A DNA stretch of 64,000 nt from Anthracocystis setariae (taxonomy: Eukaryota > Basidiomycota > Ustilaginomycetes > Ustilaginales > Ustilaginaceae), in NCBI GenBank assembly GCA_928724745.1, contig CAKMXJ010000006.1, positions 186,001 through 250,000 on the forward strand, in the 5' to 3' direction. The first letter of the stretch is position 1. Every line of letters starts with the position of its first letter. Both the position numbers and the translations under genes were made by a program. The notes beneath the pieces were generated by a model, which saw only the letters and a list, made by a program, of their open reading frames with translations, ran no database searches and had not been told where the DNA came from. Of the stretch, positions 54 to 34,118 are shown piece by piece.

Positions 54-1900
54 CGACAAGATCCTCCACCCGGCGCGGTGGTTCCGACTCCGGGGTAGCG
101 GGAGGCTCTGCCCCCGCCCCCGAACAAGCAATGGTCGTGGACGAGTCCCGGGGCGTTAGTGCCCCGGAGGTTGTGGACGAGTCCCGGGGAGTGAGTGCCC
201 CGGAGGTCGTGGACGAGTCGGGCCGGTACGTGGCCCAAGAGGGAGACGTGGTCTCCCTGTACGCGGACGAGTCCCCCGCTCGGGAGGGCGGGGAAGCTGG
301 AGCCGAATTGATCCCGGCTCCCAGGGTTGTGGACGAGTCCTCGGCGCAGGACACATCTCCGCGCCGGGAAGATGGGCAGCAGGCTCCCGGGCTCCCGGGC
401 CAGGATGCCAGCACCGCGGTGGCCTCCCGTAGTGGGGTCACCCCCGGGCCCTCGAACGTGGCCGCCCCGACTCCCGGGGTTGGCGTAGCAATCGGGGATC
501 CCGGGAGGCTGGCGGAGTTGGTCCGGGAGGTGCGAGCACGGGGTACCCCTCCCGCTTCTGAGGGGTACGGGCACTGTTGGTCTTGCGCCAACAGCAAAAA
601 GAAGCCCCACCCGCAGTGCTCCCTGGGCTATGCGCACCGGGACGTCGGGGGTCCGGAGGACCCCCGGGACGGTCAGCATGCCGCATGCGAGCGTTGCCAC
701 GCCGCGGGGTATCCCTGCGACTGGCAGGGGCGCGTCCCGGACATCACGGGACGTCAGGAGGGCGGCTTCCTGATGGAAGCCTATCTTGTCCTCCGGGCCC
801 GGGGTCAACGTCCAAACCCCGGGATGCCCTTCACCTCGTTCTCCGCGGCAGACCTCCCGGATTACCTGGCGGCCGAGTACGCCCCTGCGCGTGCTCGGTA
901 CGAGACTCGTCGACAGGCCAAGGCGGGTAGTCGTCCCCGGGCTCCCGAGTCTCCCGCTGGGACGTCGTCCGGTGCTGGCGGCAGTGTCCCGGGCTCCCGG
1001 CCTCCTCGGGGTCAACGGGGGTGGAAGCAGACCACCCTCATCCCCGATGCTCCCTTGGCCCTGCGCCAAGTTTGTCCCTTCGATGCTCCGGGGGACCAGC
1101 ATATGGCCGGGGCCCGGGAGGCGGCATCCCACGCGGCGGGAGTGATCGCCGCGCTGGTGCAGGTCCTTCGCCGGACCGCTGCCGTGGGGGCGGAGCGACG
1201 TCTCTCCTGGTCGTACCGGGACGAGAACATCCTCCGCTACGTGGAGGGTGTGAGCCATGCCTTCGGGGGTATCACCCAGGAGCTTGGCGTCCCGCCTCCT
1301 CCCCCGCCCCCGGTTGGGGCTCCCGCTGCCCCTGCCCCTGTCCCTGCTCCCGCCGCCGTTCCTGCTCGCGTGGCGGCTGCTCCCCGCCCCAGCGCTGAGG
1401 CTGGGCCGTCCCGACCCCGGAGGTCCTCTCCTCCGGGATACGCTCCGGCCACCCCGGAGGTGGCGCGCGCGAAAAGGCAGCGCCCAGGGACCCCGACGCG
1501 GGAAAGGCCCCCCCGGGCTGGAGGGTCTCGTCCCCAAACCGGGGGGAAACGCCTGCCTGGGGGCTCTCAGACGGGAGGGAAACGCCTCCCGGGGAGCTTC
1601 CAGACCGGGGGAAAGCGCCTCCCGTTGAGTGGGCTTCGCCCCGCCTCTCCCGAGCCGGAGAGACGTGCCCAGCGACGCCGCGCCCAGGCGGTGGTGAGGG
1701 AGATGCGGGCCCCCATCCGACCCCGCCGCCGTGGCAGCTCTCGGGAGGACTCCCGGGACGACTCCCGCGACGAGGAGTCCTCTGGGGCTGAGGGCCGCAG
1801 CCGGGAGTCCGGGGAGGACTCCGACGAGGATGTGGTGATGGTGGACTCGGATGTGTACGAGTCCCGTCCCCGCACTCCTTCTCGCAGGGGGCGTCGGTAG
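54..1900 (+). CDS. Opposite-strand accessory protein of element A (exon 2), Cys-rich zinc-finger-like
   Basis: Large final exon of a gene on the strand opposite to A's gag-pol. An intron tail precedes it (pyrimidine-rich, acceptor AG at 52-53); the first exon, two codons plus one base by analogy with element B, lies outside the window. With that exon the protein is 617 aa. Residues 177-224 hold six cysteines spaced CX2CX10CX22CX2CX6C; the second half resembles a Zn2Cys6 cluster. The N-terminus has repeated VDES units, followed later by a proline/alanine-rich segment (about 420-465), three QTGGKRLP repeats (about 497-526), and an Arg/Ser/Asp/Glu-rich tail ending in RRGRR. Function is unknown; nuclear or nucleic-acid-binding is only a guess. 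It is convergent with gag-pol, 324 bp away, and its protein sequence is conserved in element B. Confidence 0.85.
134..205 (+). repeat. 36-bp in-frame tandem repeat (two copies plus a partial)
   Basis: Two adjacent 36-bp units start at 134 and 170, with a partial third at 206. Each encodes a VVDESRGVSAPE-like 12-mer. More isolated VDES/ADES units follow (about 263 and 331). Element B has the same repeat, so it predates the split of the two copies. Confidence 0.85.
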
Positions 1901-2224: not shown

Positions 2225-5200
2225 TCAGTAGCCCGGGGGGTCCTCCTGGCTCCCGGGTTGTTGCTCATGGAACTCCCGCAGTAATTCTTGGCTGTTTTCA
2301 AGATGAACTGCTGGCTCCCAGGTAGGTTGGGTGTACCCGACCCATTTCACCCGGTACTGTCGTCCCCGGCGCGTGTCCCGGGAGGCTAGGATGCCTTCAA
2401 CTTCAAAGTCTTGTCGGTCGTCCTCCAGGCGCCGGGACGTCGGGGCGTGCTCAGAGGGCCGGGTATCCGGGGAGTATGGTTCCAGGAGACTGACGTGAAA
2501 TACCGGGTGAATTTTCCAGGCGGGTGGGAGGTCTAGCTTGTAGGCCCGGGGGCCTATTGCTTGGAGGATGCGAAACGGTCCCGCCAGCGGGTTCCCTAAC
2601 TTCCGGGACGGACGGTCCTGTCGGAGGTGCCGGGTGCGGAGCAGTACCATTTCACCCCCGGAAAAAGACCGGTCCATCCTGGAACGGTTCGCGTATTTGG
2701 ACATGGTCAGGGAGGCCCGGTCAATGTTGGCTTGGCATTGGCAAAGGAGTTGGTGGAAAGAAGATTCGGAGGGTGGCCTACCACCCGGGGAGAGGGCCGG
2801 CGAACCGGGGAGGGTACGCGGGGTGAAGCCAAACAGGGGGAGGGTGGCCGGGAGCCCGGTCGTGGCTGACACCCGATTGTTGAGCGTAAGCTGGGCGTAG
2901 GGCAACCAGGTGGCCCAGTCGTCTTGTTGGTAATTGATGTAAAAACGGAGGAAAACTTCTAAGTTTTGGTTGACCCGCTCCGTTTGGCCATCGGTTTGGG
3001 GATGATAAGCTGTGGAAAGAGCCGGGGTGGTCCCGAGGGCGGTTAATATGTCTTTCCACAGGGATGATATGAAAGTGCGCCCCCGGTCCGAGACGATAGT
3101 GTCCGGGAGTCCAAAGTAGGCAAAGACACGGGAGAACAGCATGTGGGCGAGGTCTTTGGCTGTATCGGACTTCCGAGCCGGGAGGAAAAGTGAGTATTTG
3201 GTGAGGCGATCGACGACAACGAGAACGGAGTCGAATGTGAGACCACCGGCCCGGGAAGGCGGGAGACCTTCGATATGGTCCATGGTGATGGTCCCGAACG
3301 GCCGGGACGGGGCCTCAAGCGGGAGTAGCAGTCCATAAGGCTTATGCCGGGGTGCCTTAGCGCGCTTACAGGCTCCGCAGGTCCGGACGTACTCCGTAAC
3401 ATCATGCTTGAGGGTCGGCCAGGAATGGTGACGACGGACTAGTTCGAGGGTCGCGGCCACTCCCGGGTGTCCCGCCGTTGGGTGGTCGTGATAACGTTCT
3501 AGGATTTGCTTAACTTCGGTGGGGGACACGGGACTGGCCGGAAGGGGGTCGGGGGCCGGGGCTGCGTCAGATATGCGGTGCGCAGCCGGGGTTTGCTGTT
3601 CCGCCAGCCCGGAATTTTGGAACAGGTAGGGGGGTAGGAGGACCGCAACGTTAGCGGGGTCATGCTGATGATTGGTAGTGGTGGTGTTGGGATGACCATC
3701 GGAGCGCCGGGACAGAGCGTCCGGGCGGGTGGCCTGGGTCCCGGGTCGGTACGTAATGGTGAACGTGAACTCCCCGAGAGCCATGCTCCACCGGGCCTGC
3801 CGCCTGTTAAGTTGCCGTTTCGTTTGGAAATATTGGAGGGCCTGGTGGTCGGTGAGCACCTCAAACGGCTCCTGGAGCCCGTGGAGATAATGTCTCCATT
3901 CCTGCAACGCGTCCACGATCGCTAGGAGCTCCTTATCGTGTATTTCGTAATTGCGCTCTGCGGGCTGCATTTTCCGCGACCAATAGGCTACCGGGTGAAG
4001 CCGGTGGGTCGAGGGCCGGGGTACGGTCCCGGGGTCGGTTCCCGGGATGGCATACCACTGGGAGAGTACGGCAGCCACGACGTAATCACTGGCATCTGTC
4101 TCGATCACCGTGAGCCGAGAGGGGTCGAAGTGTTGTAGGATTGGGGCAGTAGTGAAGGCTTCTTTGAGACGGGTGAAAGCTTCCCGCTCCCGAGGCTCCA
4201 AGATGATCTTCCCGGCGGCCTTGTTCTTGAGCCGATCGGTGAGCGGGGTCGCCACCCGGGAGTAGTGGCGGATAAAACGACGATAGAAGTTGGCAAACCC
4301 TAGGAAAACCTGGATGTCCCGGATGGTGACCGGTTCTGGCCAGGACGTCACCGCGTCCACTTTACCGGGGTCCATGCTGATCCCTCCGGGGCTGACCCGG
4401 TACCCAAGGAATTCGACGGACGAGGTCCTGAAGTCGCATTTTTCCGGGGCACAGTACAGCTTGTGGTCCCGGAGGCGCCTTAGCACCTCCCGGACGTGAG
4501 AGGTGTGTTCTGCGGGGTCACCCGAAAATATGAGGATATCGTCCAAATACACTATCACCGTGACATCCAAGAGGTCGTGGAGGACGTGGTTCATAAGACG
4601 CTGGAAGGTAGACGGAGCGTTACATAGTCCAAAGGGCATAACTAAGTATTCGTAGCTCCCGTACCTGGTCCGGAAGGCTGTTTTCCATTCGTCGCCCTCC
4701 GCGATGCGAACAAGATTGTAGGCCCCCTTAAGATCCAATTTCGTGTAAATCTTAGCCCGGGAGAGGCAGTCCAGGTGCTCGGAGATCAGGGGAATTGGAT
4801 ACTTGTCTTTGACGGTGATGCTGTTGAGGGCCCGGTAGTCGACGCAAAGGCGGAGTTTGCCATCTTTCTTCGGGACGAAGATGATAGGGGCGGCTGCCGG
4901 GCTCTTGGACGGCCGGATGAACCCTATCTCAAGCATCTTATCAAGATAGGTCTTAAGTTCCTCCATTTCTCTCCCGGAGAGGGAGTATAGCGCGCCATGT
5001 GGGATCTGAGCTCCGGGGAGGAGGTTAATCTGGTGGTCGTGAGGCCGGCGAGGCGGTAGCACGTCGGCGTTGGCCTCATCGAACACGTCCGAGAAGTCCC
5101 GGTACTCCTCCGGGAGGCCTGGGGCCCGGGGTGGCTCCAAGGGACTAGGGTGGATAGCGAAACAGTTCTCCCCCGGGACGGGATCCTGTCCATTGGTAAG

Positions 5201-7132
5201 CAGCGGAGGGCCGGTAGGTTGAACCGGGGTGGTGGCGTAACCCCCTCCTCCCGGGAGCGGGAAGTGCATGGTTTGGGTTTGATAGTTGAGTACCGGTTCG
5301 GTCCTTTCAATCCAATCCATTCCGAGGATGATATCATAATCGGAGATGCGGGGGGCGACATAGAATTGATGATTCGGGGTAACCGGGACTCCCGCAAGGC
5401 TGACCGATGCCCTGAGAGTGTGGGTGATAGCCTCTGAGCGGGAATCGAAAGTTGCCGTGCGCACCGGGGCCTGGAGGGCCTCCGGGACGCCCACCTCCCG
5501 CTCCAGCATGGCCCTGTCCACAAAAGAAGCGGTAGCGCCCCCGTCAATTAGGGCCCGGGCCCGGCACCCGGCCAGCGTGACCCAGCACTCATACACCGGG
5601 ATGCTGGGGTGCCGGTGTACCCGGATGGTGTCCCCACTGATCACCGGCTCGGCGGGAGGGATGAGGGCCGCTACATGGCTCCTGAGATCCACGAGTCCCG
5701 GATCCTGGCGAAGTTGGGCGATGTTGGCCCTCACCGGGGGAGATTGAGGATGGTCGGTGGACTCGGGGTCCCACTCCGGGTCATAGGACAGGATGGAACG
5801 GTCATCAGGTAGGTCATCCTCGCCATTGATAGGTGTGGCTTCGTCTTCACCGGACCACCGGGTCTCCGGGACGTCCGGGACCAGGGGTTGGACCAAAAGC
5901 TCGCCGTTGGCGGGGTCCAGGATAGCCACGTTGGCCCGGAGGGACCGAGTCTGGGCGGCCTTTGGGCAGTCCCGGACTGCGTGGGGGCCCCCGCACCCGT
6001 AGCAGAGGTTGTTTTCCCGACGATACTTGCGGACCTCGTCGGGAAGCTCCCGGCTGGCCAGCCCGGGGCGGGGCGGATCACCCCGCTTGTTGGGGGGCTC
6101 GCGACGGGGTACCATCGGATTGGGTGAGCGGCCGCCCCGACCTTCGGGGCGGCGTTCCGGGCGACCCGGGGTGTCCGGGTGACCCGGGGTCACCAGGCCG
6201 ATCTCGTACATTCGCTGCTCGGTTCGGATGGCGGTGTCAATGTACTCGTGCAGATCGTAGGTCTCCACGTGGAGGAGCTTCTGCCGGAGGCTCTCCCGGA
6301 GGCTAAGCTGGAAGGTAGTCAACAATTGCTGATTGTCGGTAGCGTTAGCCTTAGTGGCTAGGGCCAAGAACTCGGCAGCGTGAGCGCTAACGCTTCCCGA
6401 TTGACGCAACCGCTGGAGCTTGACCCGGGCGGTGTGTCCCGGGTTGGGATCCCCATAGGTGCGGCGAAGATCGGCACAGAACGTATCCCATTTGTGGAAC
6501 AGGTTGATTTCCGGGCGGGCCTGGCGCAGGTTGCGGAGTCGCTCCCGGGGTACACCCGAGATATGGGCTAGGGCCCATAGGACACGGCGGGGGTCGGAGG
6601 GGAAGCGTGCCGGGTTAAGATCGAAATGGAGGGTGCATTGTTCGATGAAAGCCTCCAGCTCGTCGCGCTTACCGTCCCAGGAAGGAGCGGCAACGCTAAC
6701 TTCCGGGGCCTTAGCCCGGGAGGAGTAATCCTCCGAGGGGTCCCAGTTGGGAGCCACTGCAGGGGTTCCCGGGGGACCCGGCTGCTGGGTGACCTCTCGC
6801 TCGCCCATCAAACGGGTCGCACGGGCGTACCTGTCCTCCGAGGTCTCGCGCTCAGGGAGGAAGTCTCCCGGGTAACCCGTGGTTCCTCCCGGCTCGCGGG
6901 GAGGCGGGAGGGTCGGCTCTGCCGGGGTCGGGGCGGCGGGGTCGAGGACCCGGCCGCTGTTGAGCGCCCGGATCTGGTCGGCCAATCCTCCGACCAGGGC
7001 GGTGAGGCTCTGGACGGCGGCGACCAGTCCCTGGACGGGATCGCCTCCCGAGCCGGGGCTTTCGGGGGTAGGGCTGCCCGAACTCGGAACGGAGTCCGGG
7101 GAACCGGGACGAGGCTGGCTACGGGTTTGCAT
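2225..7132 (-). CDS. Gag-Pol polyprotein of element A (intact, 1,635 aa)
   Basis: A single uninterrupted frame encodes the whole polyprotein. In order: Gag (to about 330), a CCHC knuckle CX2CX3HX4C (about 376), an aspartic protease whose active site reads IDGGAT instead of D(S/T)GA (about 528), reverse transcriptase with YLDDILIF (about 860), RNase H with ETDAS (about 1010), integrase with an HHCC zinc finger and the D,D,E triad (in MDHIEG, VSDRG and QTERVN, about 1284, 1346 and 1385), and a C-terminal chromodomain (about 1575-1620, ending near VKWVGY and WEP). The chromodomain identifies a chromovirus, a group known to target heterochromatin. Single-ORF Gag-Pol is common in this group. All catalytic motifs are present apart from the protease variant, so the protein could be active. 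Confidence 0.95.
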   Translation of the reverse strand: MQTRSQPRPGSPDSVPSSGSPTPESPGSGGDPVQGLVAAVQSLTALVGGLADQIRALNSGRVLDPAAPTPAEPTLPPPREPGGTTGYPGDFLPERETSEDRYARATRLMGEREVTQQPGPPGTPAVAPNWDPSEDYSSRAKAPEVSVAAPSWDGKRDELEAFIEQCTLHFDLNPARFPSDPRRVLWALAHISGVPRERLRNLRQARPEINLFHKWDTFCADLRRTYGDPNPGHTARVKLQRLRQSGSVSAHAAEFLALATKANATDNQQLLTTFQLSLRESLRQKLLHVETYDLHEYIDTAIRTEQRMYEIGLVTPGHPDTPGRPERRPEGRGGRSPNPMVPRREPPNKRGDPPRPGLASRELPDEVRKYRRENNLCYGCGGPHAVRDCPKAAQTRSLRANVAILDPANGELLVQPLVPDVPETRWSGEDEATPINGEDDLPDDRSILSYDPEWDPESTDHPQSPPVRANIAQLRQDPGLVDLRSHVAALIPPAEPVISGDTIRVHRHPSIPVYECWVTLAGCRARALIDGGATASFVDRAMLEREVGVPEALQAPVRTATFDSRSEAITHTLRASVSLAGVPVTPNHQFYVAPRISDYDIILGMDWIERTEPVLNYQTQTMHFPLPGGGGYATTPVQPTGPPLLTNGQDPVPGENCFAIHPSPLEPPRAPGLPEEYRDFSDVFDEANADVLPPRRPHDHQINLLPGAQIPHGALYSLSGREMEELKTYLDKMLEIGFIRPSKSPAAAPIIFVPKKDGKLRLCVDYRALNSITVKDKYPIPLISEHLDCLSRAKIYTKLDLKGAYNLVRIAEGDEWKTAFRTRYGSYEYLVMPFGLCNAPSTFQRLMNHVLHDLLDVTVIVYLDDILIFSGDPAEHTSHVREVLRRLRDHKLYCAPEKCDFRTSSVEFLGYRVSPGGISMDPGKVDAVTSWPEPVTIRDIQVFLGFANFYRRFIRHYSRVATPLTDRLKNKAAGKIILEPREREAFTRLKEAFTTAPILQHFDPSRLTVIETDASDYVVAAVLSQWYAIPGTDPGTVPRPSTHRLHPVAYWSRKMQPAERNYEIHDKELLAIVDALQEWRHYLHGLQEPFEVLTDHQALQYFQTKRQLNRRQARWSMALGEFTFTITYRPGTQATRPDALSRRSDGHPNTTTTNHQHDPANVAVLLPPYLFQNSGLAEQQTPAAHRISDAAPAPDPLPASPVSPTEVKQILERYHDHPTAGHPGVAATLELVRRHHSWPTLKHDVTEYVRTCGACKRAKAPRHKPYGLLLPLEAPSRPFGTITMDHIEGLPPSRAGGLTFDSVLVVVDRLTKYSLFLPARKSDTAKDLAHMLFSRVFAYFGLPDTIVSDRGRTFISSLWKDILTALGTTPALSTAYHPQTDGQTERVNQNLEVFLRFYINYQQDDWATWLPYAQLTLNNRVSATTGLPATLPLFGFTPRTLPGSPALSPGGRPPSESSFHQLLCQCQANIDRASLTMSKYANRSRMDRSFSGGEMVLLRTRHLRQDRPSRKLGNPLAGPFRILQAIGPRAYKLDLPPAWKIHPVFHVSLLEPYSPDTRPSEHAPTSRRLEDDRQDFEVEGILASRDTRRGRQYRVKWVGYTQPTWEPAVHLENSQELLREFHEQQPGSQEDPPGY

Positions 7133-7179: not shown

Positions 7180-7378
7180 TGTTATGCTCCTGGGGTCTGG
7201 GAACCTCGGAACGTGGCGGTGCGTCTGTATCGAGGCCAGGGGCGTGGTACCGGGTGTTGTTCCCGGGATCGTTGCCTAGATAGCGGAGCGGGTGAGCGGG
7301 AGATCGGGAGAAGGTCTGATATTTCCACCTACTATAGTGAGTAAGCTAAAATACAATCGACGTCCTGACGTGAGTTAG
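7180..7378 (-). repeat. 5' LTR of element A, R-U5 part
   Basis: On the minus strand it ends in CATAACA at 7180 and by eye is about 95% identical to the 3' half of element B's LTR. Similarity is lost a few bases before position 7378, where element B is inserted. The predicted transcript start of A (GTCGATTG, about 7361) lies only about 17 bp from the insertion point. Confidence 0.85.
7374..7378. repeat. Target-site duplication of element B (left copy)
   Basis: GTTAG directly before the TGTTATG start of B's 5' LTR. The same five bases follow B's 3' LTR at 15585-15589. Five-bp duplications are typical of Ty3/gypsy integrases. Confidence 0.9.
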
Positions 7379-7736
7379 TGTTATGATTGGGATATCGGGA
7401 GAGTTAGTGATTGGTTTCAGTATCAGAGCGGGCAGGAGTGGTCCCCCCGATGACGCCCGGATCGGGGATCGGGGGCAGACTGCGGCATCACCCGGGGGGT
7501 ATCCGGGAGGCCACATAATCTCACGTCCTAAGTCCACCACACTCACGACAGGACGTCGATTGTATTTTAGCTTACTCACTCTAGTAGGTGGAAATATCAG
7601 ACCTTCTCCCGATCTCCCGCTCGCCCGCTCCGCTATCTTGGCAACGATCCCGGGAGCAACACCCGGTACCACGCCCCTGGCCTCAACACAGACGCACCGC
7701 CACGTTCCGAGGTTCTAAGACCCCAGGAGCATAACA
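7379..7736 (+). repeat. 5' LTR of element B (358 bp)
   Basis: Starts TGTTATG, ends CATAACA. GTCGATTGTA at 7555-7564 is complementary to the PBS and, by analogy with Tf1, should be the 5' end of the transcript; that gives U3 of about 176 bp and R-U5 of about 182 bp. Confidence 0.95.
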
Positions 7737-7737
7737 T

Positions 7738-7747
7738 TACAATCGAC
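7738..7747 (+). promoter_or_regulatory. Predicted self-priming PBS of element B
   Basis: TACAATCGAC one base after the LTR is perfectly complementary to LTR bases 7555-7564; allowing two mismatches the match extends to about 15 bp. Same arrangement as in A. No tRNA-like TGG PBS is seen. Confidence 0.6.
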
Positions 7748-7783
7748 CTCCCCGTTGCCACCAACGCGGAGACTCCAGCTACC

Positions 7784-10700
7784 ATGCAAACCCGTAGCCA
7801 GCATCGTCCCGGCTCCCCGGACTCAGTTACGAGTTCGGGCAGCCCTACCCCCGAAAGTCCCGATTCAGGAGGCGACCCCGTCCAGGGGCTAGTCGCCGCC
7901 GTGCAGAGCCTAACCGCCCTGGTCGGAGGATTGGCCGACCAGATCCGGCTGCTCAACAGCGGCCGAGCCCCCCGACCCCGCCGTCCCGACCCCGGCAGAA
8001 CCGGGCCTTCCGCCCATGGAGCACCCGGGAGACCCCTTTCCGGAACGCGAGACCTCGGAGGAAAGGTACGCCCGCGCTACTCGCCTTATGGGCGAGCGCG
8101 GGTCCAATCCCCAGCCGGTGCCCCCCGGGAGCTCCCGTCGTGGCTCCCAACTGGGACCTTACGGAGGACCATTCTTCCCGGGTCAAGACCCCGGAAGTTA
8201 GCGTTGCCGCCCCCTCCTGGGACGGTAAGCGCGATGAGCTGGAGGCTTTCATCGAACAATGCACCCTCCATTTCGATCTTAACCCGGCACGCTTCCCCTC
8301 CGACCCCCCGCCGTGTCTTATGGGCCCTAGCCCATATCTCGGGTGTACCCCGGGAGCGGCTCCGCAACCTGCGCCAGGCCCGCCCGGAAATCAACCTGTT
8401 CCACAAGTGGGACACGTTCTGCGCCGATCTCCGCCGCACCTACGGGGATCCTAACCCGGGACACACCGCCCGGGTCAAGCTCCAGCGGCTGCGCCAATCG
8501 GGAAGCGTCAGCGCTCACGCTGCCGAGTTCTTGGCCCTAGCCACCAAGGCTAACGCTACCGATAATCAGCAATTGCTGACGACTTTCCAGCTTAGCCTCC
8601 GGGAGAGCCTCCGGCAGAAGCTCCTCCACGTGGAGACCTACGACCTGCACGAGTACATTGACACCGCTATCCGAACCGAGCAGCGAATGTACGAAATCGG
8701 CTTGGTGACCCCGGGTCACTCGGACACCCCGGGTCGCCCGGAACGCCGCCCGAACTTCGGGGCGGTCGCTCACCCATTCGACGGTACCCCGTCGCGAGGC
8801 CCCCAACAAGCGGGGTGATCCGCCCCGCCCCGGGCTGGCCAGCCGGGAGCTCCCCGACGAGGTCCGCAAGTACCGTCGGGAAAACAACCTCTGCTACGGG
8901 TGCGGGGGCCCTCACGCAGTCCGGGACTGCCCAAAGGCCGCCCAGACTCGGCCCCTCCGGGCCAACGTGGCTATCCTGGACCCCGCCAACGGCGAGCTTT
9001 TGGTCCAACCCCTGGTCCCGGACGTCCCGGAGACCCGGTGGTCCGGGGAAGACGAAGCCACACCCATCAATGGCGAGGATGACCTACCTGATGACCGTTC
9101 CATCCTGTCCTATGACCCGGAGTGGGACCCCGAGTCCACCGACCATCCTCAATCTCCCCCGGTGAGGGCCAACATTGCCCAACTTCGCCAGGATCCGGGA
9201 CTCGTGGATCTCAGGAGCCACGTAGCGGCCCTCATCCCTCCCGCCGAGCCGGTGATCAGTGGGGACACCATCCGGGTACACCGACACCCCAGCATCCCGG
9301 TGTATGAGTGCTGGGTCACGCTGGCCGGGTGCCGGGCCCGGGCCCTAATTGACGGGGGCGCTACCGCTTCTTTTGTGGACAGGGCCATGCTGGAGCGGGA
9401 GGTGGGCGTCCCGGAGGCCCTCCAGGCCCCGGTGCGCACGGCAACTTTCGATTCCCGCTCAGAGGCTATTACCCACACTCTCAGGGCATCGGTCAGCCTT
9501 GCGGGAGTCCCGGTTACCCCGAATCATCAATTCTATGTCGCACCCCGCATCTCCGATTATGATATCATCCTCGGAATGGATTGGATTGAAAGGACCGAAC
9601 CGGTACTCAACTATCAAACCCAAACCATGCACTTCCCGCTCCCGGGAGGAGGGGGTTACGCTACCACCCCGGTCCAACCTACCGGCCCTCCGCTGCTTAC
9701 CAATGGACAGGATCCCGTCCCGGGGGGAGAACTGTTTCGCTATCCACCCTAGCCCCTCGGAGCCACCCCGGGCCCCAGGCCTCCCGGAAGAGTACCGGGA
9801 CTTCTCGGACGTGTTCGATGAGGCCAACGCCGACGTGCTACCGCCTCGCCGGCCTCACGACCACCAGATTAATCTCCTTCCCGGAGCCCAGATCCCCCAT
9901 GGCGCGCTATACTCTCTCTCCGGGAGAGAAATGGAGGAACTTAAGACCTATCTTGATAAGATGCTTGAGATAGGATTCATCCGGCCATCCAAGAGCCCGG
10001 CAGCCGCCCCTATCATCTTCGTCCCGAAGAAAGATGGCAAACTCCGCCTTTGCGTCGACTACCGGGCCCTCAACAGCATCACCGTCAAAGACAAGTACCC
10101 GATTCCCCTGATCTCCGAGCACCTGGACTGCCTCTCCCGGGCTAAGATTTACACGAAATTAGATCTTAAGGGGGCCTACAATCTGGTCCGCATCGCGGAG
10201 GGCGACGAATGGAAAACAGCCTTCCGGACCAGGTACGGGAGCTACGAATACTTAGTTATGCCTTTTGGACTATGTAACGCTCCGTCTACCTTCCAGCGTC
10301 TTATGAACCACGTCCTCCACGACCTCTTGGATGTCACGGTGATAGTGTATTTGGACGATATCCTCATATTTTCGGGTGACCCCGCAGAACACACCTCTCA
10401 CGTCCGGGGAGGTGCTAAGGCGCCTCCGGGACCACAAGCTGTACTGTGCCCCGGAAAAATGCGACTTCAGGACCTCGTCCGTCGAATTCCTCGGGTACCG
10501 GGTCAGCCCCGGAGGGATCAGCATGGACCCCGGTAAAGTGGACGCGGTGACGTCCTGGCCAGAACCGGTCACCATCCGGGACATCCAGGTTTTCCTAGGG
10601 TTTGCCAACTTCTATCGTCGTTTTATCCGCCACTACTCCCGGGTGGCATCCCCGCTCACCGATCGGCTCAAGAACAAGGCCGCCGGTAAGATCAACTTGG

Positions 10701-12674
10701 AGCCTCGGGAGCGGGAAGCGTTCACCCGCCTCAAAGAAGCCTTCACTGCTGCTCCAATCCTACAACACTTCGACCCTTCCCGGCTTACCGTGGTCGAGAC
10801 AGATGCTAGCGATTACGTCGTGGCTGCCGTACTCTCCCAGTGGTATGCCATCCCAGGAACCGACCCCGGGGCCGCACCCCGGCCCTCGACCCACCGGCTT
10901 CACCCGGTAGCCTATTGGTCGCGAAAAATGCAGCCCGCAGAGCGCAATTACGAAATACACGATAAGGAGCTCCTAGCGATCGTGGACGCGTTGCAGGAAT
11001 GGAGACATTATCTCCACGGGCTCCAGGAGCCGTTTGAGGTGCTCACCGACCACCAGGCCCTCCAATATTTCCAAACGAAACGGCAACTTAACAGGCGGCA
11101 GGCCCGGTGGAGCATGGCTCTCGGGGAGTTCACGTTTACCATCACGTACCGACCCGGGACCCAGGCAACCCGCCCGGACGCGCTGTCCCGGCGCTCCGAT
11201 GGTCATCCCAACACCACCACCACCAATCATCAGCATGACCCCTCTAACGTCGCGGTCCTCCTACCCCCTTACCTGTTCCAAGATCTCGGGCTGGCGGAAC
11301 AACGAACACCGGCTGCCCACCGGATATCGGACGTAGCCCCGGGCCCCGACCCTCTCCCCGACCAGTCCCACGTCCCCCGCCGAAGTGAGACAAATCCTGG
11401 CACGCTATCACGACCACCCGACGGCGGGACACCCGGGAGTGGCCGCTACACTCGAACTAGTCCGCCGTCACCACTCCTGGCCCAAGCTCAGGCACGATGT
11501 CACGGAGTACGTTCGGACCTGTGGAGCCTGTAAGCGCGCCAAAGCGCCCCGGCATAAGCCCTACGGACTGCTGCTCCCGCTCGACGCCCCGTCCCGGCCG
11601 TTCGGAACCATCACCATGGATCATATTGAGGGTCTCCCGGTTTCCCGGGCCGGTGGTCTTGCATTCGACTCCATCCTCGTCGTCGTCGATCGCCTCACCA
11701 AGTACTCCCTCTTCCTCCCGGCTCGGAAATCCGATACAGCCAAAGATCTCGCCCACATGCTGTTCTCCCGCGTCTTTGCCTATTTTGGGCTCCCGGACAC
11801 TATCGTGTCGGACCGGGGGCGCACTTTTGTAGCATCCCTGTGGAAAGACATTTTAACGGCCCTCGGAACCACCCCGGCCCTCTCCACAGCCTATCATCCC
11901 CAAACCGATGGCCAAACCGAGCGTGTTAACCAAAATCTCGAAGTTTTCCTCCGATTCTATGTCAACTACCAGCAAGACGACTGGGCTGCCTGGCTGCCGT
12001 ACGCCCAACTTACGCTTAACAATCGGGTGTCAGCTACTACCGGGCTCCCGGCCACCCTACCCTTGTTTGGATTCACCCCAAAAACCCTCCCCGGCTCCCC
12101 GCCCCTCTCCCCGGATGGTACCCCGCCGTCCGATTCGGTGTTCCGGGAGCTTCTACAGCACTGCCAAGCCAACATCAACCACGCCGCCACCCTAATGTCC
12201 AAGTACGCAAACCGTTCCAGGATGGACCGGTCTTTTTCCGGGGGTGATATGGTGCTGCTCCGCACCCGACATCTCCGACAAGATCGTCCCTCCCGGAAGT
12301 TAGGGAACCCGCTAGCGGGACCGTTTCGTGTTCTCCAGGCGGTAGGCTCCCGGGCTTACAAGTTGGACCTCCCGCCCGCCTGGAAAATTCACCCGGTGTT
12401 CCACGTCAGTCTCCTGGAACCGCACTCCCCGGATACCCGGCCCTCCGAGCACGCCCCGACGTCCCGGCGCCTGGAGGACGACCGGCAGGACTTCGAAGTG
12501 GAAGATATCTTGGCTTCCCGCGAGACACGTCGGGGGCGGCAGTACCAAGTTAAGTGGGCAGGCTACACCCAACCCACGTGGGAGCCAGCGGTTCACTTAG
12601 AGAATAGCCAGGAACTGCTCCAGGAATTCCACCAGCGGCAGTCCGGGAGCCAAGTTAGCGCCCGGGGCTGCTGA
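7784..12674 (+). pseudogene. Gag-Pol of element B, broken by about eight frameshifts
   Basis: Same domain order as A's Gag-Pol (Gag, CCHC knuckle, DGG protease, RT, RNase H, integrase, chromodomain), but the frame changes near 7975, 8125, 8306, 8748, 8788, 9727, 10409 and 11358. Six shifts are +1 and two are -1; most of the +1 shifts are one extra C or G in a run of C or G. There is also a short deletion near 8010 relative to A. Between shifts the protein stays nearly identical to A's, with YLDDILIF, integrase and chromodomain preserved, so the damage is recent or is a sequencing/assembly artefact. As written it cannot make a full polyprotein. Confidence 0.9.
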
Positions 12675-13025
12675 CTCCTAGCTGCCCCCGCCTCCCGGAC
12701 GCCAGCGCGGGAGCAACCAGCGCGGTCACCGTGGGAAGCACCGGCGAGGGAACGGGCGACGCACTGTCCCGACCCGGAAAGCGGGCCAGTAGTCGGGAGC
12801 CATGCGCCCCGGCACACTCAGCTCGTCCCGGTCGACTTCCCGACCCGGCCACCGTACCCGGGGGACAGAAGACTCGCTGACACACTCACACACACGCCCA
12901 CACTCTTACCCTCACTCTCACACACGCACACACACACTCAACACGCGGGAACTCGGGGTAAGTACAATCTTATTCCCGGGATCCTAATGACCCCGGACAC
13001 ACGACAGAACATGGCTCCCGGGGGC
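12675..13025. other. Convergent spacer of element B with CA-rich tract
   Basis: 351 bp between the stop of pol and the stop of the opposite-strand gene. A CA/CACT-rich simple-sequence stretch lies at about 12880-12943, matching the TG-rich run in A's spacer. No convincing ORF. Confidence 0.6.
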
Positions 13026-14951
13026 CTATCGACGCCCCCGACGCGGAGGGGTGCGAGGACGGGACTCGTATACGTCCGAGTCCACCATCACCACATCCTC
13101 GTCAGAGTCCTCCCCGGACTCCCGGCTCTGGTCCTCCGCCCCCGAGGACTCCTCGCCGCGGGACTCGCCCCGGGAGTCTTCCCGGGAGCTGCCCCGACGA
13201 CGGGCACGGATCGGGGCCCGCATGTCCCGCACCACCGCCTGAGCACGGCGGCGCTGGGCACGCCTCTCCGGCTCGGGAGAGGGAGGGCGGAGTCCACCCA
13301 CCGGGAGACGCTTCCCGCCCGTTTGGAAGCTCCCCGGGAGGCGCTTACCCCCCGACTGCGGAGGGCGCTTTCCTCCCGTCTGTGGCCGAGAGCCACTAGC
13401 CCGGGGAGCTCGCTCCCGCGTTGGCGTCCCGGGACGCTGCCTTTTGGCACGCGCCAACTCCGGGGTGGCCGGAGCGTATCCCGGGGGAGGGGAACCCCGG
13501 CGTCGGGACGGCCCAGCTTCAGCATTGGGCCGCGGGGGAGCCGCCACGCGAGCAGGGGCGGGGGCGGGAACCGGGACAGGGGCAGGGGCAGGCGCAGGCA
13601 CCATCGGGGGCGGGGGAGGTGGCGGGACGCCAAGCTCCCGGGTGATGCTCTCAAAAGCACCACTCACACCCTCCAGGTACCGGAGGATGCTCTCGTCCCG
13701 AGAGGACCACTCGAGACGCCTCTCCGCTCCCACGGCAGCGGTCCGGCGAAGGACCTGCACCAACGCGGCGATGACTCCCGCCGCGTGGGATGCCGCCTCC
13801 CGGGCCCCGGCCAGATGTTGGTCCCCCGGGGCATCGAAGGGACACACCTGGCGCAGGGCCAGGGGAGCATCGGGGATGAGGGTGGTTTGTTTCCACCCCC
13901 TTTGACCCCGAGGGGGCCGGGAGCCCGGGGCACTGCCGCCCGCACCGGAAGACGGCCCAGCGGGGGACTCGGGGGCCCGGGGACGAGTGCCCACCTTGGC
14001 CTGGCGCCGAGCCTCGTACCGAGCACGCGCGGGAGCGTACTCGGCCGCCAGATACCCCCGGCAGGTCTGCCGCCGAGAAGGAAGTAAAGGGCATCCCGGG
14101 GGTTAGGACGCTACACCCGGGCCCGGAGGACAAGATAGGCTTCCATCAGGAAGCCGCCCTCCTGACGCCCCGTGATGTCCGGGACGCGCCCTTGCCAGTC
14201 GCAGGGATACCCCGCGGCATGGCACCTCTCGCACGCAGCATGCTGGCCGTCCCGGGGGTCCTCCGGACCCCCGACGTCCCGATGCGCGTACCCCAGGGAG
14301 CACTGGGGGTGGGGTTTCTTCTTACTGTTGGCGCAAGACCAACAGTGCCCATACCCCTCCGAGGCGGGAGGGGTTCCCCGTGCCCTGACCTCCCGGACCA
14401 GACCTGCCAGCCTCCCGGGATCCCCGATCGCTACGCCAGCCCCGGAAGTCGGGGCGGCCACGTTCGAGGGCCCGGGGACAGTCCCACTGGAAGGGACCAT
14501 CGCGGTGCTGGCTTCTGGGCCCGGGAGCCCGGGAGCCTGCTGCCCAACTTCCCGACACGCGGCCGAAGCCTGTGCCGGGGACTCGTCCACGCCCTGGACG
14601 CCCGGGACCAAATCGGGGCCAGCTTCCCCGCGCGGGAGCACGGGGGACTCATCCACATACAGGGAGACTACGTCTCCCTCTTGGGCCACATAGCGACCCG
14701 ACTCGTCCACACCCTCCGGGGCACTCACGCCCCGGGACTCGTCCACTACCTCCGGGGCACTCACGCCCCGGGACTCGTCCACGTCATTGCTGTTGCCAGG
14801 GGCGGGGGCAGAGCCTCCCGACACCCCGGCACCGGAGCCGCCTCGCCGGGCGGAAGATCTGGTTGCTGTCAGAAAAAAAAAAAATAAAAAGAAGAAGACG
14901 TTAGTACGGTCCACGCCACTCTCCGGGTCCCGAACAGTACTTACCGGGCAT
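13026..14951 (-). pseudogene. Opposite-strand accessory gene of element B (two exons, two +1 frameshifts)
   Basis: Exon 1 is ATG CCC G (14951-14945); an intron follows (14944-14866); exon 2 runs from 14865 to 13026. Splicing gives MPATRSS, which aligns with A's ATRSS start. The six-cysteine core is identical to A's. The frame breaks by one extra base near 14105 (a stop follows RARV) and another near 14063, after which the original protein resumes to RRGRR. The C-terminal part still differs from A mainly at synonymous sites, so the shifts are recent or artefactual. A TATA box lies about 85 nt upstream. Product function is unknown. Confidence 0.8.
14866..14944 (-). other. 79-nt intron of the element B accessory gene
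   Basis: Read on the minus strand: donor GTAAGT directly after ATGCCCG, a TACTAAC branch-point sequence, a long T-rich tract, and acceptor CTGACAG. Removing it fuses ATGCCCG to CAACCAG in the frame conserved in element A. Confidence 0.85.
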
Positions 14952-15033
14952 CTTGGCTGAAGTTAGTGTTCCGAATCTTGAGGAACGAGGTTGTGGGGGA
15001 AGGGAAGGAACCAGGAACGGTAGAGAGCCGGGT

Positions 15034-15039
15034 CTTATA
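15034..15039 (-). promoter_or_regulatory. TATA box of the element B accessory gene
   Basis: TATAAG on the minus strand, about 85 nt before the start codon at 14951 and inside the element rather than in the LTR. It suggests the opposite-strand gene has its own promoter. Confidence 0.5.
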
Positions 15040-15212
15040 TGCGAAATAGAAGCCAGCGCTCAGCCCACCGCGCACGTCCCGCCAGGCACACAAAGCGTCC
15101 GTTCCTGACTCCTTTGTTCTCAGCGCGGACCACGCGTGGTGGGCCCGGGGACCTCCCGGGTGGAGCTTAAGACCCGGGAGTACCAAAAGGCCACGAGGAC
15201 GTCGGCCTTCCC

Positions 15213-15226
15213 GGGGGGGGGGGTAA
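15213..15226 (+). other. Polypurine tract of element B
   Basis: A run of 11 G followed by TAA directly before the 3' LTR; this is the expected plus-strand primer position. Confidence 0.7.
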
Positions 15227-15584
15227 TGTTATGATTGGGATATCGGGAGAGTTAGTGATTGGTTTCAGTATCAGAGCGGGCAGGAGTGGTCCCCCCGATG
15301 ACGCCCGGATCGGGGATCGGGGGCAGACTGCGGCATCACCCGGGGGGTATCCGGGAGGCCACATAATCTCACGTCCTAAGTCCACCACACTCACGACAGG
15401 ACGTCGATTGTATTTTAGCTTACTCACTCTAGTAGGTGGAAATATCAGACCTTCTCCCGATCTCCCGCTCGCCCGCTCCGCTATCTTGGCAACGATCCCG
15501 GGAGCAACACCCGGTACCACGCCCCTGGCCTCAACACAGACGCACCGCCACGTTCCGAGGTTCTAAGACCCCAGGAGCATAACA
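15227..15584 (+). repeat. 3' LTR of element B (358 bp)
   Basis: Same length and, by eye, the same sequence as 7379-7736, including TGTTATG/CATAACA ends. Followed by the GTTAG duplication. Confidence 0.95.
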
Positions 15585-15740
15585 GTTAGTTGCGGGGAGG
15601 ATCTTTGGTGTGACCCCCGGGAGCCCCTCCCGGAGATTGCCGCAGTTCCACCCTGGACCCCGATTCCTGACCTGGATCGGGAAAGCCTCCTCCCGCTTGT
15701 CACACTACTATATTATTGCCCGGCACTGATGTTCGTAACA
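15585..15740 (-). repeat. 5' LTR of element A, U3 part
   Basis: Begins with the GTTAG target copy and, read on the minus strand, starts TGTTACG at 15740. Joined to 7180-7378 it gives an LTR of about 350 bp with TGTTA/TAACA ends. This U3 half matches B's U3 only poorly, in contrast to the well-conserved R-U5 half. The outer end is inferred from the terminal TGTTA and the expected length; the matching duplication is outside the window. Confidence 0.65.
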
Positions 15741-16667
15741 TCCCCTCCCCCTCATCTCCTCCCTCGCGAGCACCGCGCTCTCAAACCCGAGGAGATCGCA
15801 ATCTTCAACCCGGCCAACAACGACGACGTCGAAGTCTTTTGTCGCCGCATTAAAGATATGACGTTCGCCAAGGGTCCGGTGGCAGTTTGTGAAGTCCTTC
15901 CTCAATGCCTGCGTTCTACAGCAACGGAATGGTACACCAACCTCGACGAAGAGGATCATAACACCCTTCGTACTAGTCCCGAAACTTGGACCCGCCTCCT
16001 TCGCGCGCGATTCGGGATTAGCGTGACCGAAGCGCACAACCAGCTCGGCACCCTTCGCTATGACCTTAACACCGACTACCATGCCTACCATGAACGTAAG
16101 GTCCGCCTTGCCCGCCTCGCCGGAATCCAGTCTCCAGAGCTGGTGGTTCAGCACATCTTTGCGGGTCTGCCGTTTGAAATGCGCAACGCTTTGGCAAGCT
16201 GTCTCGAAGGTCCCGACGCTAGCGACCTCAATCTCTTTCGCCGCCGCTGCCTTGCTCAACGTGCTACTCTCCTGTCTCGCCGGGGTGATCAGCGCTCCAC
16301 TTCCAAGACTTCCGCCGCCGCCCACCCTCAGGCTCCGGGTCCCGTTCCTCGCTCGTCCACCCCTCAGCGGGCTCTAGCCGACCGCTCGGTCCAGCGTCCC
16401 CCTCCTCGTCCTTGCCGTCACTGCAACGGCCCACACTGGGACAGTGATTGCCTCAAGGCGTCGCAGCCGGCGCGGGCGCCCGTGATCGCGGCTCATCACG
16501 CAGATGCATCTCCCTTCAACGAGCAGGATTACGCCGCCCTTGATTACCAACGCCTCGAACAGGTTTACGCGGCCAGTACTAGCTCTTCTTCCTCCGACAC
16601 TGACACCGCTCCGGGTCTGTCCCATTCGCCCGACGTCTCGGCGGATACCTCCTCTAGTTCCGCCTAG
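15741..16667 (+). CDS. Gag of element C (N-terminus cut off by element A)
   Basis: Open frame from the insertion point to a UAG at 16665-16667. The upstream ATG at 15729 belongs to A's LTR and is not the natural start. The middle resembles retrotransposon Gag (trimer-like helices with a WYTNL motif). A CCHC knuckle CX2CX3HX4C (in CRHCNGPHWDSDC) and a Ser/Asp-rich tail follow. The frame continues without shift into protease/pol after the single stop codon. Confidence 0.8.
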   Translation, partial: SPPPHLLPREHRALKPEEIAIFNPANNDDVEVFCRRIKDMTFAKGPVAVCEVLPQCLRSTATEWYTNLDEEDHNTLRTSPETWTRLLRARFGISVTEAHNQLGTLRYDLNTDYHAYHERKVRLARLAGIQSPELVVQHIFAGLPFEMRNALASCLEGPDASDLNLFRRRCLAQRATLLSRRGDQRSTSKTSAAAHPQAPGPVPRSSTPQRALADRSVQRPPPRPCRHCNGPHWDSDCLKASQPARAPVIAAHHADASPFNEQDYAALDYQRLEQVYAASTSSSSSDTDTAPGLSHSPDVSADTSSSSA

Positions 16668-21307: not shown

Positions 21308-25903
<4,596 letters not shown>

Positions 25904-31826: not shown

Positions 31827-34118
31827 ATGGCCGTATCAGGGAACCGTCCTGCATCGCACGAAGCCAGGCTGCCACCGTTGTCACCATCTCTGTCCAACCA
31901 GTCCGAGGCCCACGCATCGTCGAGCTCATACAGGTCTCAGCAGCGTTCTCCGCCCTCACTCTCAGCTGCTTCTTCAGCTACAGGGCCACTCCCACCGCCA
32001 CCACCCCCTCGGCTTCACTCCTATCACCATCCCATCTCAGCTTCATACACTTCCAGTAGCAGCTACTTTGATCGCAACCGACAACCTGCGCCTTCGCTTT
32101 GGAAGGACTATAGATCACCACCGCTGGAACATCGATCCTCGGAAGCTGCTGCGGCTTCTTCCTTTTCTCGCTTGCTCCCCCCGCTCTCCACTTCGGGTTC
32201 GAGCAGCAACGGCAGCAACACTGCATTCCAGCTGCCCTCTCTGTCCGCAAGTCTGCCGTCTTCAAATTCTTGGCACGGTCGGGAAAGCCAGCCCTCGCCT
32301 AGCATCAATGGTACATCTGCATCGTCTTTCCGAGCAACGCGAGAAGCGCACGTCAATGAAGCGCGTAGACTTGCGCAGGATCCCAAGCTTGCTTCCTCAT
32401 CGGCACATCTTGGTGACGCGCAAGCCTCTGAAGTTGCCGCTGCAGCGCTCGTCTCGCCTACCGTAGAGGAGCCTTTGCAGACTGGCCGCAAGCCTGCCAA
32501 AGCGCACGTCCCGTCTGCTTGCCTCAACTGTAAGCGCGCGCATCTTGCATGCGATGTCAGTCGACCTTGCCGTCGTTGCGTCAATCTTGGCAAAAGTGAT
32601 ACCTGCATTGATGTTCAGCACAAGAAAAGAGGCAGACCTCGTTTGAAGGATCGGCCGTCATCCCAGACGGGCGTCGCTACGATCCAGTCGCTTGAGGGCA
32701 GGAGCGACGTTTCTGGCTCACCCGCTTCGGCATCCTACACGCAACAATCGCCTAGTTCCGAGTCTGGCTACTTTCGATCTCCTTCCCGGACTACCGATCT
32801 ACTTTCTCCACCATTGCTTTCTTCAAATTCAGTGATGCAAGTCAACGGTCGAACGCACGGCGCTGGCGCTCCTTCTCGAAGTGCTTCCAACTCGGTTTCG
32901 GCCTCGAGCTATCCCTACTCCCGGCCCGACCATGTTCGACATCCCTCGGACGTAGGTGCTCACAATGGCGGCGGATACGGCGCTTCATCTTGGTCGTACC
33001 ACCAGCAACAGAACGAGCACCATGGCCGCGAAGGGTTCAACAAGGCGTCGCCGGTGCATTCGACCAGCGCTCGTCATCAACTGCATTCGCAATCCTACGA
33101 GCAGCAGTACCCCTCGTACCAGCAGCAAAGTTCGCAGCAGCAACAGCACCATGGACACGCGCAACATTCCGCTCCACCTCCTCAAAGTCCTCATCCGGCT
33201 TTTGGTGCATCAGATTCGGCGGATGGAATGGTATCGGCGTTGGTCACCATGATCTGCTCGACGAACCTCCAATGCGCACGGATCTCGGAAGAGTGCACTG
33301 CGCTGCTGGGGTATCAGCCGAGTGAGTTGAACGAGCGTTCGCTGTTCGAATTGGTGCATCCTTCGGAAACAAGCCGGTTGCAAGACATCTGGACGTCGCT
33401 GATTGACCCAGTTGGCGTGGTGCCGCAGGCGGTGCCCGCTGCTGCCGAAGTGGTGATGAGCACGCCGCCTGCTCGGCTGATGACGCCGGCAGCCGGGACG
33501 ATCTTTGTGCAGGAGAACATGCGTCTGAGGCAGCGCAACGGGATGTACGATTTTTACAGCGTGCGTCTGCATCTTGGCGGCGGCTTTGGCGTGGATTTGT
33601 ATCGAAGAGAGACGCTTGATCGAGCCTATATTGTTGCTAGTCTGCTCAAGCTAGGCAACGATGCTGTTCATCCGGATCCAGCTATCCTTCGCTCACCGTA
33701 TTCGCACGATGCTGCTCAAACGCGCAGCTTCCGAACGCCTAGAGCTCCTCCTGCTCTCGCTGCAAATCGACCAGCAAAGTGGGAAGCGGAAGAGACGGGT
33801 CAACGTTCGCGTTCGGACTCGGTCAATCATCGAGCAGCCACGACCACCACGACGGCCCATGTCGAAAACAACGTTGGTCGCGATGACGAGTGTCAACCTT
33901 GCAACACTGCGTTTCAAGAACCATGCCGAGGCGTCAAACGCTCCAGTGCCGAAATGGACCAAGACGACACTCCTCGTCGCAAACCCTCTGTCTCGCTAAC
34001 TCCAACCTCGACTTATAAGAATCCTTCCACCCGATCTCCGCCGCCACCCGCACCCGTGGTTCGCTCGCTCATCAACGACCGAACACGCACCGCCAGTCGC
34101 GATGGCATCCTATGCTAA
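31827..34118 (+). CDS. Zn2Cys6 transcription factor with PAS domain
   Basis: 763 aa. A fungal binuclear zinc cluster (CX2CX6CX5CX2CX8C, residues about 230-260) is followed by a basic HKKRGRPRLKD segment that resembles an AT-hook. A PAS-like domain (about 466-530; ALLGYQPSEL, LVHPSE) lies in the second half. This combination is known from the ERT1/AcuK-type and related PAS-containing zinc-cluster regulators of carbon metabolism, but the exact subfamily is not resolved. The rest is Ser/Pro/Gln/His-rich. The start (CACCATGG context) has no in-frame upstream ATG seen. The leader is pyrimidine-rich. Confidence 0.85.
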   Translation: MAVSGNRPASHEARLPPLSPSLSNQSEAHASSSSYRSQQRSPPSLSAASSATGPLPPPPPPRLHSYHHPISASYTSSSSYFDRNRQPAPSLWKDYRSPPLEHRSSEAAAASSFSRLLPPLSTSGSSSNGSNTAFQLPSLSASLPSSNSWHGRESQPSPSINGTSASSFRATREAHVNEARRLAQDPKLASSSAHLGDAQASEVAAAALVSPTVEEPLQTGRKPAKAHVPSACLNCKRAHLACDVSRPCRRCVNLGKSDTCIDVQHKKRGRPRLKDRPSSQTGVATIQSLEGRSDVSGSPASASYTQQSPSSESGYFRSPSRTTDLLSPPLLSSNSVMQVNGRTHGAGAPSRSASNSVSASSYPYSRPDHVRHPSDVGAHNGGGYGASSWSYHQQQNEHHGREGFNKASPVHSTSARHQLHSQSYEQQYPSYQQQSSQQQQHHGHAQHSAPPPQSPHPAFGASDSADGMVSALVTMICSTNLQCARISEECTALLGYQPSELNERSLFELVHPSETSRLQDIWTSLIDPVGVVPQAVPAAAEVVMSTPPARLMTPAAGTIFVQENMRLRQRNGMYDFYSVRLHLGGGFGVDLYRRETLDRAYIVASLLKLGNDAVHPDPAILRSPYSHDAAQTRSFRTPRAPPALAANRPAKWEAEETGQRSRSDSVNHRAATTTTTAHVENNVGRDDECQPCNTAFQEPCRGVKRSSAEMDQDDTPRRKPSVSLTPTSTYKNPSTRSPPPPAPVVRSLINDRTRTASRDGILC

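Follow-up and report, generated by a model that had tools for sequence, protein, structure and literature searches.

Nested chromoviruses carrying a gene opposite to gag-pol

The window, a stretch of 64,000 nucleotides, contains two nested LTR retrotransposons, A and B, and in each of them the region that separates pol from the 3' LTR holds a long gene encoded on the other strand from gag-pol, an arrangement noted in a preliminary description of this DNA and with which the coordinates and the Pfam matches agree. The gag-pol of element A lies on the minus strand (2225-7132), where Pfam recognises gag, protease, reverse transcriptase (RT), RNase H, integrase and, C-terminal to the integrase, a chromodomain (residues 1576-1623, E 1.2e-9). 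This Ty3 domain order, together with the chromodomain at the C-terminus of pol, makes A a chromovirus, as had been claimed; Pfam also finds a chromodomain in the pol of two further loci of the genome, L033 and L040. The gag-pol of element B, which is frameshifted, lies on the plus strand (7784-12674, delimited from the list of open reading frames, a Pfam gag match and alignment with A), flanked by a 5' LTR (7379-7736, +) and a 3' LTR (15227-15584, +) that are identical over 358 nt. Its target duplication is GTTAG, and the G-run adjoining its 3' LTR (15213-15223, +) is likely the polypurine tract; at the same place the aligned copies show a C-run when read on the antisense strand. B was inserted in the 5' LTR of A, since the joined flanks are present whole in the other LTR of A.

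Several further observations concern the nest and its surroundings. The nested insertions span 7180-15741, and A itself seems, by eye, to be inserted within the gag part of another Ty3-type element, the third of the nest, with TCCCC flanking it on both sides; at locus L016, a gag-like frame was seen by eye to the left of A. Despite its identical LTRs, B has several frameshifts in gag-pol and in the antisense gene (7784-14951), which reflect either a broken template that was copied or assembly errors in runs. Just after the 5' LTR of B (7737-7756), the reverse complement matches the LTR of B at its position 177 over 10 nt (GTCGATTGTA), a match reached in 12 of 5000 shuffles, which suggests self-priming of the kind for which we take Tf1 as the comparison. 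The nest adjoins a host-type gene (21308-25903, minus strand) with LAG1 DNA-binding, beta-trefoil and TIG domains, presumably a member of the CSL family. At 32517-32630 on the plus strand, a Zn2Cys6 match (PF00172, 25.3 bits) falls within an open frame of 777 codons that is likely a host transcription factor.

Anatomy of the antisense gene

The antisense gene of B extends over 13026-14951 on the minus strand. As read from the sequence text, a first exon of 7 nt (ATGCCCG, 14945-14951) would be followed by a predicted intron of 79 nt (14866-14944; GTAAGT...TACTAAC...CAG, with TACTAAC at 14900-14906) and by exon 2 (13026-14865), which was traced from pieces in three frames and by alignment with A. 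The gene is frameshifted after residue 250, so that B does not hold an intact copy. Exon 2 of A (54-1900, plus strand) is open to its stop, and the corresponding exon 1 lies just outside the window, upstream, as seen in L016. A core containing six cysteines is located at 521-799 (+) in A and, by alignment with A, at 14120-14398 (-) in B, over 93 codons. Upstream of the gene of B, a TATA-type box, CATATAAGAC, stands at 15032-15041 (-), about 85 nt before the ATG.

These elements recur in other copies of the same family (family 1), of which 30 loci were surveyed for sequence patterns only, 20 being aligned and eight of these viewed. At 28 of the 30 loci, exon 2 is preceded by an ATG and, a few bases further on, a GTAAG or GTGAG donor; the exceptions are L027 and L029. 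The exon of 7 nt appears as ATGCCCG, ATGCCTG or ATGCGTA, and the donor, a branch-like CT(A/G)AC and the acceptor recur across the aligned copies. On the antisense strand upstream of the ATG, a box of the TATATAA or CATATAAGAC type occupies the same place in the aligned copies, which also have CCGTTCCTGGTTC in common upstream of the start. At the other end of the gene, 3' of its stop, an inverted block of the type CCGGG(G/A)TCATTAGGA(C/T)CCCGG and an AAT-rich stretch are kept within a spacer that is otherwise divergent; between A and B, 120 of the 301 aligned sites in the spacer between the two stop codons differ. Blocks of the type CCGGGGTCATTAGGACCCCGG lie after the antisense stop at 12985-13005 in B and at 1928-1955 in A, and such a block is perhaps a 3' end signal. 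The gag-pol and the antisense gene are convergent, with their stops about 350 nt apart. From these patterns we infer that the antisense gene would be transcribed from its own internal promoter and give a spliced mRNA.

Copies in the genome and selection at the codon level

A tblastn search with the exon of B yielded 71 matches in the genome (21.47 Mb, 36 contigs). By hand count, 51 of these rows, spread over about 40 places, belong to family 1 as pieces with 44-100% identity; one of the 20 weaker rows falls in a family-1 locus, and the others match a second family with 31-47% identity, in stretches of the core and of what lies C-terminal to it. Exon 2 is open over at least 560 codons at 22 of the 30 family-1 loci examined. 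Twenty of these 22 loci were used to compute pN/pS, L012 and L025 being dropped because their last part is in a shifted frame; L019, among the 20, has a short stretch near the start that is shifted and then restored. The ratios were counted by the Nei-Gojobori method, with codon bias ignored and pairs that are not independent; they are consequently rough, and the contrast between frames constitutes the main evidence.

The cores of A and B differ by 22 substitutions in 20 codons, with 20 synonymous changes and 0 non-synonymous ones, over 211 non-synonymous and 68 synonymous sites at which random changes would be about three-quarters non-synonymous. The earlier count of 22 substitutions, 20 codons and no amino-acid change is therefore exact with B at 14120-14398, whereas the interval first given, 14121-14399, is one base out of register and produces 190 mismatches. 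Over the whole of exon 2, the pN/pS between A and B is 0.247, compared with 0.155 for gag-pol; among the parts of the latter, whose limits were set roughly, it is 0.22 for gag, 0.02 for the protease, 0.07 for RT-RNase H, 0.17 for the integrase and 0.14 for the chromodomain. The constraint on the antisense gene between A and B thus resembles that on gag.

Across the 20 copies of family 1, the antisense frame has a pN/pS of 0.264 and no stops, a value far below 1 that bears out the purifying selection proposed beforehand. The other five frames give 1.82 (154 stops), 1.85 (167), 1.37 (0), 0.37 (171) and 2.08 (156); in the frame at 0.37, third positions face third positions, and it therefore echoes the real frame. 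It could be argued that the antisense frame is open as a shadow of GC-rich sequence, or that it is conserved through an overlapping gene on the sense strand, which is itself open in one frame (reverse frame 0), with 0 stops in the 20 copies of family 1 and in nine copies of family 2. However, the pN/pS of this sense frame is 1.37 in the former and 1.74 in the latter, which identifies it as the shadow and places the selection in the antisense frame; this reading is refuted, and we attach practically no probability to it.

Along the gene of family 1, windows of 50 codons give a pN/pS of 0.10-0.13 over codons 151-300, the value that applies to the core, 0.11 over codons 351-400 and near 0.9 over codons 101-150. 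The closest pairs (pS < 0.03, 17 pairs) stand at 0.50 and the older pairs at 0.19-0.29, and a weaker constraint in recent pairs would follow from selection that operates while the lineage replicates and ceases once a copy is dead. The antisense gene is real and has been long retained, and its protein is under purifying selection.

A protein with a six-cysteine core

The antisense protein, of about 600-630 residues, consists of the cysteine core, another conserved region at codons 351-400 and low-complexity tails, basic and acidic. The cysteines of A and B are spaced CX2CX10CX22CX2CX6C, exactly as first described, and this core probably binds zinc. Basic stretches of the KRxR type are present on reading of the alignment, and the acidic end of the protein carries VVMVDSD. 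Short acidic stretches rich in valine and isoleucine (VVMVDSD, VIEIPSS, EIIDLADV) were seen by eye in families 1 and 2 and in the proteins of the L042 type described below; we take them to resemble SUMO-interacting motifs.

The statement that the core is unrecognised stands after searches of Pfam, NCBIfam and solved structures, which returned no real match. The antisense proteins of A and B match no Pfam family at E <= 1, that of family 2 gives a chance match alone (SOG2, E 0.46), and none of the chromovirus antisense proteins reaches a curated Pfam cut-off. In NCBIfam, no match was found for families 1 and 2. A profile of the two families returned one chance match among solved structures (E 9.4), and a scan of viral contigs with the two-family alignment gave 56 pattern matches and 0 relatives. 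An AlphaFold model of the core of A, with B as second row, had a mean pLDDT of 39 and no usable fold. The L040 protein gave NCBIfam matches to L-aspartate oxidase models (E 0.017 and 0.15) that are far under the cut-offs and are attributed to chance.

Antisense genes in two further chromovirus groups

At L033, which represents family 2, a pol with a chromodomain lies on the minus strand and a frame of 600 codons on the plus strand, the core of which aligns with the protein of A. This first alignment was made without composition correction; with correction, matches in the genome from one family to the other go down to E 3e-15. Identity between families 1 and 2 is 26-28% in the alignment, and five of the six core cysteines, together with CDWxGRxP...EGxxLMEAYLxxRxxGxRPNP, are invariant in 15 rows. 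The antisense gene of family 2 is homologous to that of family 1. Its pN/pS is 0.152 over up to 453 codons in nine copies out of 14 loci, the frameshifted or partial ones (L036, L037, L040, L043 and L044) being excluded, and four of the other five frames hold 69-127 stops. A partial pol of family 2 (five loci, 865 codons) gives 0.095.

A reversed gene is also present in a third group of chromoviruses, which share 37-43% identity with A at the pol end. One of its loci, L040, has a frame of 382 residues with WSCERCWRLGVPCF...CTNCHVAGMGKC, which as a query obtained 24 matches in the genome. Three of these are near-identical; the remaining 21 are weak (31-36% identity, E 1.5e-7 to 6e-4) and all have a single TAA in the matched stretch. 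At L059, this TAA falls within GTAAGT, the donor of an intron predicted inside the cysteine core (930-1010; GTAAGT...CTGAC...CAG), whereas L040 reads through the same place without an intron. Read across the predicted intron, L059 would encode SCQHCADLDVPCF...CCHCLTAKKKC, and the comparison of the two loci supports splicing of the antisense RNA, with a loss or gain of the intron between them. Group 3 shares with families 1 and 2 the place, the strand, a predicted intron and the six-cysteine core; in a profile comparison with these families (probability 16.1), essentially the cysteine stretches alone align.

The association with pol was evaluated by counting a pair wherever the gene lay on the other strand and no more than 4 kb beyond the end of pol, fragments being left out; all counts hold among the matches listed. 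The preliminary description had named an ORF absent or disrupted in most copies as an outcome that would speak against the gene. Absence is not what was found, as the gene stands beside 35 of the 37 pol ends of family 1 (median distance 1447); disruption does occur, exon 2 being broken or incomplete at 10 of the 30 family-1 loci examined, B included. The two family-1 pol ends without a listed gene within 4 kb are at C20:439533-440003 and C27:85417-85887. All 18 pol ends of family 2 are accompanied by the gene (median distance 460), as are 23 of 27 in group 3, three at a distance of 292-293 and 20 at 799-825. No pair of gene and pol on the same strand was listed in the three groups, and gene matches without a listed pol end amount to 3 of 38 in family 1, 5 of 23 in family 2 and 1 of 24 in group 3. 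The aORF-3R class is defined by antisense ORFs that lie past pol, before the 3' LTR, in most copies, and by position, strand and frequency these genes fall in it; as regards the antisense transcript, a further mark of the class, they present a promoter-like box and an intron pattern.

Extra genes in Ty1/copia elements

Extra genes were also observed after the pol of Ty1/copia elements, on the same strand (L042:6296-7663 (-), L045-L052 and L053-L058, with L058 not tied to pol). The L042 protein, of 456 residues, has 53 matches in all, 16 of them near-full. By eye, the L042 and L053-L057 proteins are encoded on the same strand as, and 3' of, the Ty1/copia RT-RNase H; RVT_2 was tested, and found, for L055 and L057 only. 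The core is spaced CX2CX6C-X16-CX2CX6C in L042 and CX2CX6C-X19-CX2CX6C in L055, and neither of these measured cores reaches the cut-off of a Pfam model. A six-cysteine extra gene at the 3' side is therefore present in both kinds of LTR element, forward in copia and reversed in the chromoviruses. In profile comparisons of the copia sense ORF with the chromovirus antisense protein (probability 6.9) and with group 3 (probability 10.2), essentially the cysteine stretches alone align. It is rather doubtful, in our estimation, that the Ty3 chromoviruses and Ty1/copia elements of this fungus share a self-encoded family of cysteine-cluster nuclear regulators. If they did, the extra gene would be an exchangeable, lineage-wide module that gives elements control over their own expression or a choice of chromatin, and a fungal counterpart of the regulatory proteins of retroviruses.

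Proposed role of the antisense protein

What is established here is that the gene exists, that it lies opposite to gag-pol, that selection acts on its protein and that it has been kept in different chromovirus groups. We propose, with a probability of roughly 0.55, that it is an accessory chromovirus gene with its own antisense promoter, the protein of which acts through its core as a nuclear regulator of the element cycle. The gene would be read from this internal promoter as a short spliced mRNA, and the protein would enter the nucleus, where its core would bind DNA or RNA of the element, or chromatin. It would thereby regulate a step of the element cycle, such as transcription, protection from silencing or the behaviour of the integration complex, with a mode of action like that of retroviral antisense proteins. 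Such a role is suggested by the cysteine core and the basic stretches, from which we infer zinc binding, a nuclear site and a regulatory function. By analogy with the antisense proteins of plant elements and retroviruses, a nuclear regulator that binds nucleic acids is the most likely role. The preliminary description had already suggested that the protein may regulate the element or the host.

It can also be hypothesised that the protein steers the integration complex, through target choice or nuclear import, and does not act on expression, a reading that overlaps with the one that we favour. The pol already ends in a chromodomain, which is a targeting module, and VVMVDSD and VIEIPSS look by eye like SUMO-binding stretches; such short motifs are nevertheless common by chance, and we consider this proposal unlikely. 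A structural or packaging helper, nucleocapsid-like or envelope-like and located in the cytoplasm or the particle, would be in keeping with a cysteine core and basic tails that could bind RNA, and the extra 3' ORFs of plant elements include env-like ones (PMC7264820). Nonetheless, the predicted promoter of the gene and its opposite strand would uncouple it from gag, and the KRxR-type stretches, on reading of the sequence, suggest the nucleus, and we hold such a helper to be unlikely. The convergence of the two genes has suggested a further explanation, in which the product is the antisense RNA itself and convergent transcription keeps the element in check through double-stranded RNA and small RNAs. 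This possibility is raised in PMC7264820, and abundant retrotransposon small RNAs are described in Botrytis (PMC8365987). Since neither synonymous change in one frame nor an intact frame is predicted by a function at the RNA level, we judge it very unlikely as the explanation of the gene, although an antisense RNA effect could act in addition to the protein.

Comparison with known systems

The nuclear regulator proposed here can be compared with several known proteins. Fungal Zn2Cys6 domains (PF00172) also have six cysteines, with the usual spacing CX2CX6C-linker-CX2CX6C, and their second half, CX2CX6C, is found in family 1, whereas the first half differs in families 1 and 2 (CX10C in family 1). 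The copia ORFs and, in group 3, L040 come near to Zn2Cys6 with CX2CX6C-X16-19-CX2CX6/7C, though their linker is long; the same would hold for L059 once its predicted intron is removed. PF00172 gave no match with the proteins of A and B at E <= 1 or with group 3 at E <= 10, and a weak one, under the cut-off, with one copia ORF (E 2.3). HBZ of HTLV-1 is a bZIP protein, whereas the gene described here encodes a cysteine core, and the antisense proteins of A and B have no Pfam match to bZIP at E <= 1. HBZ is reported as an antisense retroviral protein that is nuclear and important in the virus cycle (PMC11963269); the antisense promoter of HTLV lies inside the 3' LTR (PMC7264820), in contrast to the promoter-like region here, which is outside the LTR.

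The closest likeness in position, strand, presence in most copies and conservation like that of other element proteins is found in LTR elements with antisense ORFs between pol and the 3' LTR, of which Grande, RIRE2, Retand and PvRetro13 are plant examples (Vicient and Casacuberta, PMC7264820; PMC11963269). Grande has its own promoter upstream, to which the promoter-like region may be likened (PMC7264820). In Retand, antisense coding regions occur in all clusters, 97% of them with a TRP28 domain, and DNA binding has been proposed (PMC11963269). The plant elements nevertheless belong to another kingdom and lineage, Retand being a non-chromovirus and the present elements chromoviruses with a six-cysteine core; TRP28 (PF04195) had no Pfam match in the antisense proteins of A and B at E <= 1.

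The preliminary description had known of no fungal case, but one had been published: Boty of Botrytis and Sclerotinia contains brtn, an ORF located past pol, ahead of the 3' LTR, and in antisense orientation (Zhao et al. 2011, as described in PMC7264820); brtn is the extra ORF of BcGypsy1 (PMC8365987). Antisense extra ORFs are thus a recognised class with a published fungal member. As judged from the description in PMC7264820 alone, brtn has the same position and strand as the gene described here, but its host is an ascomycete and ours a smut-like fungus. Boty/brtn was the sole fungal case found in the literature searched on smut LTR elements and on fungal and basidiomycete antisense ORFs, most subscription journals being outside its scope, and the main text of PMC9603552, on smut LTR elements, contains no occurrence of 'antisense'. 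As far as this literature shows, a smut-like fungus is here seen for the first time to have chromoviruses with such a gene, one that encodes a cysteine core and shows selection at the codon level. What antisense genes do in LTR retrotransposons is regarded as an open question (PMC7264820, PMC11963269). With codon-level selection, about 40 places in a small genome, three chromovirus groups and a promoter and intron pattern, this fungal gene makes that function testable, and regulators encoded by the elements themselves may be common in fungal retrotransposons.
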